The translations under genes were made by a program, and so were the position numbers. This document shows, one piece after another, positions 1-55,774 of a stretch of 64,000 bases of DNA. The notes under the pieces were generated by a model. It was not told the DNA's origin and searched no databases. It saw only the letters and a program-made list of their open reading frames with translations. The stretch's first letter is position 1. Every line of letters begins with the position of its first letter. This stretch comes from Actinoalloteichus fjordicus (GTDB lineage: Bacteria > Actinomycetota > Actinomycetes > Mycobacteriales > Pseudonocardiaceae): positions 5,688,001 to 5,752,000 of the forward strand of contig NZ_CP016076.1 in assembly GCF_001941625.1 (NCBI RefSeq). Direction: 5' to 3'.

Positions 1-57
1 GCCTGGCAGCTCGTCCACGCCGATCCCCGCTCACGGCGGAGGATGAAGAACAGGCTC
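1..57. mobile_element. MITE-like repeat, copy A, cut by window edge
   Basis: This is the end of a short inverted-repeat element. Bases 1-40 match the internal part of the full copies at 27417-27578 and 54610-54769 (GCCTGGCAGCTC, then CGATCCCCGCTCACGGCGGA). It finishes in the terminal repeat ...CAGGCTC, followed by TCA at 58-60, the expected TNA target duplication. The other end and its duplicate lie left of the window. There is no coding sequence. Confidence 0.8.
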
Positions 58-4072: not shown

Positions 4073-4975
4073 ATGGAGACGCGACTGTTGCGGAGCTTCC
4101 TCGCGGTCGTCCGCACCGGGGGCATCACGGCGGCGGCGGCCGAACTGTCCTTCGTGCAGTCCACCGTCACCGCCCACGTTCAGTCGCTGGAACGACTGCT
4201 CGGGGTGCCGCTGTTCGAACGACTGCCCGGCGGAACGCTGCCCACGGATGCGGGCCGCCGACTCGCCGGGCACGCCGCCGACATCCTCGACCGAGAGGAT
4301 CGAATGCTCGCCGAGTTCGGCCCGGCGGGGCTCCGACCCGCCGGCATCGTGCGGCTCTGCGCGCCCGAGTCGATCTGCGCCTACTGCCTGCCGCCCGTCC
4401 TGCGGCTGCTCGGCAGGCGGTACCCGGACGTCCGGCTCTCGCTCGTGCCTGCGACGACCAAGGCGGCGCTGACGGCGGTCCTGGACCGCCGGGCCGATCT
4501 CGCCCTGGTCATGGAACCGGCGGTGGCCGCAGCGGGCATCGACGTCGTCGGACTCGCACCGCAGCGGCTCTCCGTCATCGCTCCGCCGGACACCGCGCTG
4601 CCGCGCGATCGCGCTCCGACGATCGCCGAACTCGCCGCTGAGGGCGTTCTGCTGCTGGAAGAGGGCTGCGGATACAGCGACGAGCTGGCCGCGCTCCTCG
4701 CCGCCGTCGACCCGACCACCAGTCCGCCCCGCTACGGCAGCGTCGAGACGGTGAAGCGCTGCGTGGAAGCAGGCCTCGGGGTGGCCCTGCTGCCCGCGCT
4801 CACCGTCGAGACGGAGTCGGCGCAGGCGCGGCTCGTCGAACTCGAACCGCCGCCGATGGCGGCCCAGCAGCTCTGGCTGGCGCGCCAGGCGAGCCGCTGG
4901 GCCTCCCCCGCCGTCCAGGCGGTGCGCACCCTGCTCGTCGAGGAGTGCGGCATCGACGGGGCTGCGCGGGCCTGA
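4073..4975 (+). CDS. LysR family transcriptional regulator
   Basis: Predicted 300-aa activator/repressor. The N-terminal winged helix-turn-helix (METRLLRSFLAVVRTGG...AELSFVQSTVTAHVQSLERLLGVPLFER) is followed by a periplasmic-binding-like effector domain (IVRLCAPESICAYCLPPVLRLLGRRYP onward). ATG at 4073 has GAGG 6 nt upstream; ATG at 4067 is an in-frame alternative. It is divergent from the serine hydrolase, its likely target. Its TGA stop is also the left copy of the target duplication of the repeat element at 4976-5037. Confidence 0.92.
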   Translation: METRLLRSFLAVVRTGGITAAAAELSFVQSTVTAHVQSLERLLGVPLFERLPGGTLPTDAGRRLAGHAADILDREDRMLAEFGPAGLRPAGIVRLCAPESICAYCLPPVLRLLGRRYPDVRLSLVPATTKAALTAVLDRRADLALVMEPAVAAAGIDVVGLAPQRLSVIAPPDTALPRDRAPTIAELAAEGVLLLEEGCGYSDELAALLAAVDPTTSPPRYGSVETVKRCVEAGLGVALLPALTVETESAQARLVELEPPPMAAQQLWLARQASRWASPAVQAVRTLLVEECGIDGAARA

Positions 4976-5037
4976 AAGCCTGTCTGTGATCCCCACTTTC
5001 CTGTTGCGCGGGGCCCAGTGGGATCAAGGACAGGCTC
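4976..5037. mobile_element. MITE-like repeat, copy D, internally deleted (62 bp)
   Basis: Short member of the repeat family. Its left end AAGCCTGTCTGTGATCCCC and right end GGGATCAAGGACAGGCTC are the inverted termini. The left 40 bp match the full copies, after which most of the interior is missing. TGA flanks it on both sides (4973-4975 and 5038-5040), a perfect 3-bp TNA target duplication. It lies between the convergent LysR and Nramp-like genes, where the folded termini could act as a bidirectional terminator (inference). Confidence 0.85.
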
Positions 5038-5073
5038 TGAGTGCGCCGCCCCGTGGATCGGCGGCCCCTCGGC

Positions 5074-26658: not shown

Positions 26659-28104
26659 TCACGACCCGGCGGGATCGGTCTCGTCGATCACCTGCCAGCG
26701 CTGGCGCGCGCCGGAGTTGGGCGTCCAGACCGAGACCTCGGCGCCGTCGTGCGTCGCCTCCCCGCTCACCTCCAGGAGCAGGCCCGCCTCGGCGTTGATC
26801 AGCGTCCAGGTCCCGTCGCCGGTGGTCGAGCCGATCCACTGCGCGGCGGCGTCCGCCTGTCCCTGCGCGTCCTCGAGGCCGACCTCGTCGTCCCGCAGCG
26901 CCGGCCGCCGATCGGTGTCGGCGGTGGTGACGACGTAACGGGCCCGGTTGCTGAGGTCCTCGGCCGAATCGGCGACCCTGGTCAGCCGCCACGCCTGCGC
27001 GGCGTTCCCGTCGACCGGGGTGCGGATCTCCGTGCCCGTGCCGTCGGCGGCGACCGTCAGGGATCGGCCGCTGCCGACCCCGGTAAGCCGGTAGTCCCGG
27101 CCGTCCCGAATCGTCGCGGCGTCCTCGGCCACCCCGGACACGCCGCTCACCGCCAGCGTGGCGACCGACCGGGCGGGGACCTCCACCGTGGCCGTGCCCG
27201 TGGCGGCGTCCACGGGCACCTGCGGGACGAGCCCCCGTCTGCGCTGGTCGCCACCGGGGTCACCGTGGCATCGGCAGCGACGTCGGCGAACCGGATGCCG
27301 TGCGCCGCCTCCAGACGTTCCACCGCGCCCACCAGGGTCCGCGGCGAAGTCCTCGACGTCGTCCACCTTGAGCTGATCCTGCTGCGCGTCGAACCCGCCG
27401 GAGACATACCCGCTCAGAGCCTGTCGTTGATCCCTGCCTTCGGAGTTGCGCGGGGCCGGCGCGGCGATCTGCGGCGTTGTCGTCGGTCACCATGACTCCG
27501 CCATGGCTCCCTCCTGTCGCCTGGCAGCTCATCCACGCCGATCCCCGCTCACGACGGAGAGGAATCAAAGACAGACTCTCAGTCATGAACCACGGCGGCG
27601 AGTTGCTGAAGGCCTCCCAGTGGTCGATCTGCCCCTTGATCCGGTCGACCCACCATCGCTTTAGTCTGATCCGCGTCCGGGTTCCCGTGCGCCGGATCGT
27701 CCGCCGACCACCAGTCGACGTCCTCACGGGTCGTGCCCGCCGGCGCCTGCCACCAGCCCGGCACCGCAGCCCCGGCGCGCAGGTAGTCCGGCACGTCGGG
27801 GGCGTTCCCGCCGCCGATGTTGTAGCGGGCGAGGTTCAGGGCCAGCCCCTCGGCGGGCGAAGACCAGCTCGGCGAGTTCCTCGCGGATCTCGTCGGGATA
27901 GCCCCCGGTGGCGCTGGCGAACCAGACCAGGCTGGTGCCCCAGCCCTCGAAATCCGGCCCCTGGTAGGAGGGGTCGGGGGTGATGGTGACCGCCGAGGCG
28001 GGCTTCACCGCGACGGCGGGCCCGGCCCCCGCTGCGGCGGAGCCGGTCGCCATCGCGATGACGCCCAGGCCTGCAACCAGGCGCTGCGTACGTGGTCGTC
28101 TCAT
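26659..28104 (-). pseudogene. GH30-type beta-1,6-galactanase with ricin-like domain, multiply disrupted
   Basis: Remnant of a secreted glycosidase. Pieces read in order: signal peptide and GPDFEGWGTSLVWFASATGGYPDEIREEL; a frame change near 27858; PDYLRAGAAVPGWWQAPAGTT...ADQTK; another near 27660; RWWVDRIKGQIDHWEAFSNSPPWFMT; the 162-bp repeat element at 27417-27578; SGYVSGGFDAQQDQLKVDDVEDFAA; a frame change; LVGAVERLEAAHGIRF. The catalytic core with both acid residues is then missing, and the text resumes at a closing beta-strand segment and a ricin-B-like repeat ending WTPNSGARQRWQVIDE. At least four frame changes, one insertion and one large deletion are visible, so it is not functional. An intact homologue would be far longer. 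It lies downstream of GH42 on the same strand. Confidence 0.88.
27417..27578. mobile_element. MITE-like repeat, copy B (162 bp) inside the GH30 pseudogene
   Basis: Near-full copy. Left terminus GAGCCTGTCGTTGATCCC, right terminus GAATCAAAGACAGACTC. It is flanked by TCA on both sides (27414-27416 and 27579-27581), a perfect TNA target duplication. It aligns along its whole length with the reverse complement of copy C at 54610-54769. An internal stem (27490-27496 with 27500-27506, loop TCC) is conserved between copies through paired changes. No transposase is encoded. Confidence 0.9.
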
Positions 28105-53430: not shown

Positions 53431-54585
53431 TCAGGCAGCACGCAGGGTGCGGAAGAACGCCCGGACGTCCTCGACGAGCAGATCAGGAGCCTCCATCGCC
53501 GCGAAGTGGCCGCCCCGGTCGTACTCGGTCCAGCGCACGACGGTGTGCTGCTGCTCGGCGACGGCCCGGATGGTGACGTCGCCGGGGAAGAGCGCACAGG
53601 CGGTCGGGACGCCGGAGTCGGCCAGCTCGGCACCCCAGTGCGTGGACTCCTTGTAGATCCGAGTCGAGGACGCGAAGGTCTCGGTGAACCAGTAGATCAT
53701 CACGTTGGTGAGCAGCGCGTCCCGGTCCACCGCGTCCTCCGGCAGTTCCTTCGCCGGGTTCGAGAAGGTCTTGAACAGGTCGACGATCCAGCCCAGCAGC
53801 CCGACCGGCGAGTCGTGCAGGCCGAAGGCCAGCGTCTGCGGACGCGTGGACTGGATCGCCGCGTAGCCCCCGACCTCCTCGAAGCCGCCCTGCTCCGCCA
53901 GCCTTCGCTGATCGGCCTCGTCCCATCCGCTGGTGTCCTGGTCCCAGCCGCCGATGGTGAGCAGGCCGTTGACGTGGACGCCGACGACGTGCTCGGTGGC
54001 GATTCGGCCGATCTGCGGGCCGACGAGCGAACCGAAGTCGCCGCCCTGCGTGCCGTAGGAGGTGTAGCCCAGCCGAGCCATCAGCGCGGCGACGACCTCC
54101 GCGTGGCGTTCACTGCCGCTCTGCCCCGCCTCACGGGTGGGCCCCGAGAAGGCGAAGCCCGGCGGCGAGGGGATGACCAGATGGAAGGCGTCGGCGGGAT
54201 CGCCGCCGTGCGACCGGGGGTCGGTCAGCGGGCCGATCACGTCGAGGAACTCGACGAAGGACGCCGGCCAGCCGTGCATCATCACCAACGGCAGCGCGGC
54301 AGGCTCGGGAGAACGAATGTGCAGGAAGTGGACCTGCTGCCCGTCGATCTCGGTGATGTACTGCGGGATCTCGTTCAGCGCCGTCTCCTGCGCCCGCCAG
54401 TCGTACCCCGTCCGCCAGTACTCCACGAGCCCTCGCAGATAGGAGACCGGCATCCCGTGGTCCCACCCCATGCCCGGCAGTTCGTCCGGCCAGCGGGTGG
54501 CGGCCAGGCGGGCGGACAGGTCGTCGAGTCGATCCTGCGGAACGTCGATGCGAAACGGGCGGATCTCGGGGGTAGGAGTCGTCAT
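53431..54585 (-). CDS. epoxide hydrolase (EHN-type alpha/beta hydrolase)
   Basis: Epoxide hydrolase of 384 aa with the N-terminal EHN segment ([57 protein letters not shown]) found in juvenile-hormone/microsomal-type enzymes. The oxyanion motif is HGWP, the nucleophile Asp lies in [11 protein letters not shown], and the catalytic His in [14 protein letters not shown]. It converts an epoxide to a vicinal diol; the substrate is unknown. It is divergent from the WYL regulator, with a mobile element in the shared promoter region. Confidence 0.92.
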
Positions 54586-54609
54586 GGCGGCGACGGTAGA
54601 ACGGCGTTA

Positions 54610-54769
54610 GAGCCTGTCTTTGATCCCCCTCCGTCGTGAGCGGGGATCAGCGTGGATGAGCTGCAAGGCGGAGGAAGGAGACATAACGGAGTTATGTTGA
54701 CTGACGACAACGCCGCAGATCGCCGCGCTGGCCCCGCGCAACAGGAAAGTGGGGATCAAAGACAGGCTC
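54610..54769. mobile_element. MITE-like repeat, copy C, full length (160 bp)
   Basis: Best preserved member. AGAGCCTGTCTTTGATCCCC at 54609-54628 and its exact reverse complement at 54751-54770 form perfect 20-bp termini. The flanks are TTA on the left (54607-54609) and TGA on the right (54770-54772): both fit TNA but are not identical. The interior holds a perfect hairpin ACATAAC-GGA-GTTATGT at 54681-54697. It fills most of the 226 bp between the divergent epoxide hydrolase and WYL genes, so it likely carries or displaces their promoters. Confidence 0.92.
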
Positions 54770-54811
54770 TGAGGACCGGATCGCTCCTATGTTCCTGCGA
54801 GGATCGACGGC

Positions 54812-55774
54812 ATGTTGGAGACCTCCGCCCGCCTGCTCAAGCTGCTGTCCCTGCTGCAGGCACGCCGCGACTTCTCCGGTGCCGAGCTGGCCGAGCGGCT
54901 GGGGGTCAGCCGCCGCACGGTTCGCCGCGACGTCGAGCGGCTGCGGGACCTCGGCTATCCCGTGCACGCCAGCCAGGGCATCTCGGGCTATCGGCTGGGT
55001 GCAGGCGCCGCGCTGCCGCCGCTGCTGCTGGACGACGACGAGGCGGTCGCGGTGACCGTCGGACTGCGCACCTCGGCGGAGAACTCGGTGGCCGGCATCG
55101 AGGAGAGTGCCCTGGGGGCACTGGCGAAACTGGAACAGGTCCTGCCGTCCCGGCTGCGCCACCGCGTCGCGGTGCTGCACTCGACGACCATGCGGGTGGG
55201 CGATACTTCCGGCCCGCAGGTCTCCTCGCAGACTCTGATGGCCGTGGCCGACGCCTGCCACCGACGCGAGCGGCTGCGCTTCGATTACGCAGGCCCGCGT
55301 GGCGGGGTGACGATCCGGACGGTCGAGCCGCACAACCTCGTCAGCTTCAGCCGGCGCTGGTACCTGGTGGCCTTCGACGTCGATCGGGACGACTGGCGTG
55401 CCTTCCGCGTCGACCGGCTGACGCCGCGCACGCCGACCGGGCCCTCGTTCCCCCGCCGGACCCCGCCGCACGGCGACGCCGCGACATATCTGACGCACCG
55501 GCTGTCCGCGCGGACCTGGCCCTGTCAGGCGACGTTCACGCTGCACCACGCGGCCGAGGCCGTCGCGGACCGGATCTGGCCGGGAATGGGCGTCGTGGAG
55601 GCGGTCGACGAACGCAGCTGCCTCTTCCACGTCGGCGGCGAGACGGTGGCGGACCTCGTGTGGATGATCACCTCGGTACGGGTCGACTTCACCCTCGTCA
55701 CCGGCCCCGCCGAGCTGCCCGACGCGCTGCGGGCACAGGGTCTGCGCTGTCTCCGGGCCGTCGACGCGCCGTGA
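54812..55774 (+). CDS. WYL-domain transcriptional regulator
   Basis: Regulator of 320 aa. The N-terminal HTH_11-type winged helix reads ARLLKLLSLLQARRDFSGAELAERLGVSRRTVRRDVERLRDLGYPVHASQGISGYRLG. The WYL domain occupies the middle (RRERLRFDYAGPRGGVTIRTVEPHNLVSFSRRWYLVAFDVDRDDWRAFRVDRL), its signature here reading WYL in RRWYLVAF. A WCX-like C-terminal extension completes it. ATG at 54812 has GAGGATCGACGG upstream. The divergent epoxide hydrolase is the natural target. Confidence 0.92.
   Translation: MLETSARLLKLLSLLQARRDFSGAELAERLGVSRRTVRRDVERLRDLGYPVHASQGISGYRLGAGAALPPLLLDDDEAVAVTVGLRTSAENSVAGIEESALGALAKLEQVLPSRLRHRVAVLHSTTMRVGDTSGPQVSSQTLMAVADACHRRERLRFDYAGPRGGVTIRTVEPHNLVSFSRRWYLVAFDVDRDDWRAFRVDRLTPRTPTGPSFPRRTPPHGDAATYLTHRLSARTWPCQATFTLHHAAEAVADRIWPGMGVVEAVDERSCLFHVGGETVADLVWMITSVRVDFTLVTGPAELPDALRAQGLRCLRAVDAP

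Follow-up and report, generated by a model that had tools for sequence, protein, structure and literature searches.

Miniature mobile repeats of Actinoalloteichus fjordicus carry a folded core that recurs under differing IS5-type ends

The stretch of DNA analysed here, referred to as the window, comprises 64,000 nucleotides (positions 5688001-5752000) of the single contig, C1, of the 7.12-Mb genome of Actinoalloteichus fjordicus (G000). In it, two divergent predicted genes, by eye for an epoxide-hydrolase-like protein and a helix-turn-helix regulator, are separated by an interval (54585-54812) that holds a 160-bp element (Table 1), lying 25 and 43 bp away from the genes; the element could affect the promoters of both. 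A search of the window with the 19-base end of this element gave six sites at no more than three mismatches, as compared to 0.04 expected from shuffles, and these six are the two ends of the window's three complete copies.

An earlier note on this DNA had described four such places, and all four are borne out by the end search and by reading of their flanks, as is their occurrence in both orientations (Table 1). The long perfect termini that it ascribed to the elements hold over 19 bp for the copy at 54610 and not for those at 4976 and 27417, which differ from it at 2-3 positions. Likewise, the common interior is present in the full-length copies and has been lost from the copy at 4976, which on this comparison is a deletion derivative. 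The equal 3-bp flanks reported for the latter and the TCA on the one visible side of the copy at the window start were found as described, and equal flanks exist at 27417 as well; the duplication claimed for the copy at 54610 is wrong, since this element has TTA on its left and TGA on its right. Finally, the elements, at 58-165 bp, are too short to hold a transposase gene, as compared to the 858-bp transposase frame of the partner element described below.

Table 1. Features of the repeat family; positions refer to the window unless preceded by a locus label
Feature	Position	Strand	Basis
Full-length element, 160 bp	54610..54769	+ (core orientation)	end matches and fold
Left terminal inverted repeat GAGCCTGTCTTTGATCCCC	54610..54628	+	0 mismatches
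Right terminal inverted repeat, perfect	54751..54769	-	19-mer end search
Core of conserved structure, positions 1-107 of model R1	54637..54743	+	116.8 bits and covariation
5' block with the highest conservation in the core, GCAAGGCGGAGG	54663..54674	+	consensus; exact-pattern match includes the 54610 copy
3' block with the highest conservation in the core, CGACAACGC	54705..54713	+	consensus; exact-pattern match includes the 54610 copy
Apical hairpin CATAACGGAGTTATG	54682..54696	+	fold, alignment, helix 8
Full-length copy, 162 bp	27417..27578	-	core 27444-27551, minus strand, 102 bits
Target duplication TCA, left of the 27417 copy	27414..27416	.	flank read
Target duplication TCA, right of the 27417 copy	27579..27581	.	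flank read
62-bp derivative without core	4976..5037	-	starts directly after TGA stop of a predicted gene
Target duplication TGA, left of the 4976 copy (predicted stop codon)	4973..4975	.	
Target duplication TGA, right of the 4976 copy	5038..5040	.	
Copy cut by the window start	1..57	-	followed by TCA at 58-60
Core-less copies	L017:8580-8640, L033:8888-8948, L046:9079-9139, L060:15897-15957, L066:8304-8363		common junction by eye

In the genome as a whole the end occurs at 211 sites with up to two mismatches, as opposed to 17 sites for the reversed pattern, and the core at no fewer than 64, a lower bound because every one of the 64 candidates scored was a match; the prediction of many copies genome-wide thus holds. 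Sixty-two full-length copies were read from 60 stretches of the genome (G+C 68-73% in the stretches examined). The T and A of a TNA target are present on the left side of 52 of these copies, on the right side of 45 and on both sides of 38, and the intervening base is the same on both sides in 28 of the 38, where 10.1 are expected, so that the flanking TNA matches exceed chance. The insertion target reads YCTNAGR. Moreover, two insertions were compared with a sister species, G002, which has the precise empty site of one of them: at L022:5757-5917 the own genome has GCCTGA, the element and then TGAGTCGA, and G002 has GCCTGAGTCGA, at a stop codon. For the second, L022:7938-8097, the left flank is conserved up to a stop codon and the right flank is not alignable. 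By these comparisons the repeats are real and mobile, and terminal repeats, TNA duplications, copy number, the empty site and a partner insertion sequence (IS) in a relative all support their earlier reading as miniature inverted-repeat transposable elements (MITEs). Some copies lie next to others: two cores in the same orientation are 54 bp apart at 6431783-6432050 of C1, and a full and a partial copy adjoin at L027:9054-9297. Two longer elements of the family (L181, 256 bp; L222, 194 bp) keep both ends and have additional sequence within the hairpin.

The earlier note could not see that this interior folds into a conserved core, which other genera carry with ends unlike those found here. The whole 160-bp element folds as one hairpin of -100.6 kcal/mol (z -10.4), its opposite strand reaching -85.0 kcal/mol (z -9.0). 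An alignment of 26 rows made with MAFFT, in which structure was ignored (A1; 28 listed loci minus L079, L081, L087 and L096, plus two own copies), yields 29 consensus pairs, and double changes are seen in 19 of them. In a second alignment of 72 model-aligned rows, 70 of them distinct (A2; from a search of 70 sources, loci that repeat an included place being omitted), 94.8% of cells are paired, as compared to at most 44% for slid structures, 25 of the 29 pairs change on both sides, and covariation amounts to 0.631 as opposed to 0.177 after shuffling; being aligned to the model, A2 leans towards the structure, which the MAFFT-based A1 does not. The letters of the apical hairpin differ among family members with the pairing kept.

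The fold also has a polarity. At 24 pairs predicted from both strands, 46 cores less than 90% alike show G·U 41 times and A·C 6 times on the strand of GCAAGGCGGAGG; the p-value of 2e-7 is too small because related sequences are not independent, and yet the direction of the excess is clear and thus points to one strand as the folding one. The two blocks GCAAGGCGGAGG and CGACAACGC, which are partly unpaired, hold most of the columns of more than 85% identity; across the whole core unpaired columns (0.69) and paired columns (0.70) are conserved alike, with no difference in favour of the unpaired. As judged by eye, the stretch that separates the blocks from the apical hairpin can pair as a stack of GA/AG steps with G-C pairs in between (C-G instead in L092), and a kink-turn, likewise considered by eye, was dropped because the polarity is reversed with respect to the definition of that motif. 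The window copy and 17 further loci gave no match in Rfam 15 at the gathering score (best scores 16.6-26.5 bits as compared to thresholds of 47-87), which rules out a known structured RNA. Taken together, the alignments indicate that the core is a conserved single-strand fold of about 107 nt with a fixed polarity and two highly conserved blocks.

Used as a query, the 160-bp element matched 9 of 41 genomes, the own one included; in the seven genomes outside the genus it is the interior that matches, with query positions 3-140 as the widest extent and never both ends. Blastn searches of plasmid and phage collections, which are the searches that reached beyond the phylum for the core, matched 9 plasmid records with this query and 16 and 23 with two relatives as queries, all of them from Streptomyces, and no phage record. 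With the covariance model R1, 20 of 60 genomes (the own one and its relatives) proved to contain the core, as did 15 of 396 genomes sampled phylum-wide, own included, for which the nine best candidates were scored per genome. The exact two-block pattern occurs in 11 of the 396, again including the own genome, and the reversed pattern in none among the matches listed. The sampled phylum is presumably Actinomycetota, since cores of named Streptomyces plasmids are up to 93-94% identical to cores in the sampled genomes. Within the phylum sample this exact pattern is most frequent in G408 (16 matches forward, 12 in reverse), and the three copies read there carry the ends AGTGCTGTGRCCGGAAAGG. A gammaproteobacterial MAG locus that came up in a contig scan with the 19-mer was rejected, as only 21 bases match.

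Which transposase could move these elements? The own genome has no match to PF01609 or PF13359 and only four weak fragments matching NF033580, the best with E 3.6e-11 over 52 profile positions, so that an intact partner IS is ruled out there as far as these three profiles can tell. The end is present, however, in 13 of 200 genomes of the family that were searched, with nine sites in G015. As read at three of these nine sites, G015 contains a 974-bp IS5-family element with the ends GAGCCTGTCTTTGATCT and GAGGCTGTCTTGGATC, whose left end is identical to the first 16 bases of the left end at 54610 (16/16). Copies 2 and 3 differ from copy 1 at 1 and 2 bases, and the flanks TCA/TCA, TGA/TGA and TGA/TCA amount to duplications in two of the three copies read. 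The element encodes a 285-aa transposase of the DDE type that scores 210 bits with NF033580 (cut-off 110), matches PF01609 and PF13340 and belongs to the IS5 family. What the earlier note had asked for, an IS that bears these ends and encodes a DDE transposase, thus exists in a relative of the same bacterial family and was not found in the own genome. A second pair is formed by the ends of the Streptomyces atratus elements and a 982-bp IS5-family element on a plasmid of Streptomyces sp. NBC_01450, which has TTA on both sides and whose assignment to the family is by NF033580 (P0001, 136.6 bits).

IS partners were identified for just these two. When 200 genomes were searched with a third end set, no IS partner came to light, the matches being the copies of G016 itself and isolated single sites in other genomes; the MITE ends of G008, G010, G035, G042, G046, G048 and the own genome form no pair around the IS5 loci of these genomes; and the ends of L070, L172, L188 and L162 gave no clear IS partner on plasmids (three L172 and five L188 matches examined), two of the L188 matches lying near an IS5-family transposase gene with a single end site in the stretch read. 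The core is absent from all four IS copies examined with R1 at E up to 1 (L205, L215, L219, L128), and the lack of a common interior rules out that the MITEs are plain deletion derivatives of the partner IS. In three other genomes (L208, L216 and L220 in G475, L209 in G589, L210 in G601) this end also borders repeats whose interiors are unrelated, on a single side, the other side being degenerate; none of these repeats has a core match.

The ends differ, both between genomes and within genomes, around the same core. End pairs were taken from 66 of the 72 rows of A2 (omitted were L079, L173 twice, L174, L182 and L187) and are clear in 59; of these, 51 were typed, the near-duplicates left aside being the second window copy, L076, L089, L112, L171, L178, L179 and L185. 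At 75% single linkage the 51 elements, from 32 genomes or plasmid records, form 17 end sets, a count that depends on the threshold. Five genomes have two or more end sets and G008 has three. In the cleanest case, G164 contains L161, with the ends GACCGACCGGCAAATGG and a TAA duplication, and L175, with the ends GGTCTTTCGTTCGG and a CTAG duplication: the cores are 88% alike and the ends 38%. The pairs L112/L126, L083/L089 and L076/L089 were discarded as false because one end string extended into the flank.

We consider it probable that these are MITEs with a structured core under changing IS5-type ends, moved in trans, and that the core lineage acquires new ends. An IS5-family transposase of the NF033580 type would act in trans on the terminal repeats, with insertion at YCTNAGR and duplication of TNA. 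By taking the ends of another IS5-type element the core lineage would outlive the loss of any one transposase; most likely, fold-back (template-switching) replication or recombination would copy a neighbouring IS5 end onto both hairpin arms, and the core would be retained by selection on the folded single strand. We further put forward, tentatively, that evolution may act on the core as its unit. In this view a folded RNA, or a single strand of DNA, with a function and a fixed polarity would persist throughout the phylum by adopting, again and again, the ends of the IS5-type element that happens to be active; its hairpin would allow a single neighbouring end to be transferred to the two arms by fold-back copying. 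Five 60-61 bp copies without the core, four of them with perfect duplications, have one and the same deletion junction as judged by eye (Table 1). Most simply, these seem to have moved after the deletion, and the core is therefore probably dispensable in cis; the other explanation is that the same junction was deleted repeatedly.

But need the ends have been exchanged at all? One ancestral MITE whose ends drifted gradually alongside the transposases, with the core under selection, is a possible course of events, albeit one that we regard as doubtful. It would agree with the way the end sets grade into one another, 9 being counted at 70%, 17 at 75% and 22 at 80%, and with end identities of 0.62-0.82 among elements of close core within G042, G034 and G354. 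On the other hand, gradual change does not sit well with the G164 pair, nor with L088 and L097 of G008, whose cores are 97% and whose ends are 53% alike (L097 lacking a clear duplication), given that pairs with cores less than 60% alike have a mean end identity of 57%. We infer that ends have been exchanged, the route being fold-back copying or recombination, and consider gradual drift a less likely course. Mirrored changes in the two arms, which are only slightly above shuffles (see below), lend fold-back copying weak support.

Alternatively, the core might be an RNA or a transcription terminator of use to the host which happens to sit in a MITE. Its strong fold on a single strand and its fixed polarity would be in keeping with this, and in view of the lack of an Rfam match the core could be an undescribed RNA. 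The position of the elements relative to genes, as determined with a simple codon-usage gene caller written for this analysis, has some bearing here. Nearly all full-length copies are intergenic (57 of the 58 that could be classified among the 62), and 20 of the 62 (32%), L022:5757-5917 among them, as well as 6 of 10 short copies immediately follow a predicted stop codon; there the duplicated TGA or TAA is the stop codon itself, so that the protein is unharmed. Plain TNA sites would give 10% at stops (p 1.5e-6) and weighting by the target profile 20.5% (p 0.03), whereas stops make up 160 of the 555 non-coding CTNAG sites, for an expectation of 29% (p 0.58). The placement is thus largely what the CTNAG target predicts; the profile-weighted comparison leaves room for a slight excess, which would be in favour of a host role. 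Against a service to the host speak the orientations at stop codons, 11 sense and 9 antisense, and the patchy spread of the core, with one match in G002 and none in G001, both of them sister species. Nor is there a bias with respect to replication, 26 copies being co-oriented and 36 counter-oriented if the origin is taken near position 0 from the GC skew; orientation to genes and replication gives no hint of host function. We consider such a role unlikely.

The covariation, in turn, might arise from mutation. Quasi-palindrome correction is a known process, by which the arms of hairpin DNA would be corrected against each other in replication without any function. Mirrored changes at the arm ends do slightly exceed those in shuffles (13 as compared to 7.6 +/- 2.4), in part as a subfamily effect, and the absence of a higher conservation of unpaired columns over the whole core is compatible with such a process as well. 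Yet it should erase the partly unpaired blocks, where most of the highly conserved columns lie, and it should not lead to an excess of G·U relative to A·C on either of the strands, and we hold it to be an improbable source of the core's pairing. That the repeats are static or mere chance palindromes can practically be dismissed, as it is contradicted by the shuffle control, the empty site, the duplications and the copy number.

How do these elements compare with known ones? Correia/NEMIS, ERIC and REPIN are short intergenic palindromic mobile repeats, none of which is known to have more than one set of ends or tags, and the REPIN/RAYT system is marked by a GTAG tag and a RAYT transposase. The bcr1 repeats of the Bacillus cereus group are also short, mobile and strongly structured and have a target duplication; they are not actinobacterial and are not known to change IS-type ends. 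ISAba12 is a member of the IS5 family. MITEAba12 is an AT-rich, geneless element of 113 bp with 16-bp terminal repeats that match those of ISAba12, its proposed mover in trans, and with 9-bp duplications (PMC6382973). The elements described here resemble it in being short, without a gene and provided with terminal repeats that match an IS (PMC6382973), but they differ from it in that they duplicate TNA or CTAG and that a covarying interior recurs under many end sets. Among the titles and opening lines of abstracts listed for actinobacterial and Streptomyces MITEs, structured transposable elements and the letters of the core, a literature from which subscription papers are mostly missing, we found no earlier description, and the word Streptomyces is absent from the passages of PMC2267715 consulted; a prior description is possible. 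With the IS5-family elements of the IS1031/IS427 type they share the terminal repeats and the TNA duplications, these IS carrying a DDE transposase in G015 and NBC_01450, whereas the four IS copies read have no match to the core.

MITEs are commonly regarded as what deletion leaves of one IS, the ends being conserved and the middle without meaning. A middle that is conserved while the ends differ calls for a reason: the core might be an undescribed structured nucleic acid of importance to the element, or transposon parasites might have a way of passing from one host to another. The covariance model R1 detects the family where no feature is annotated.
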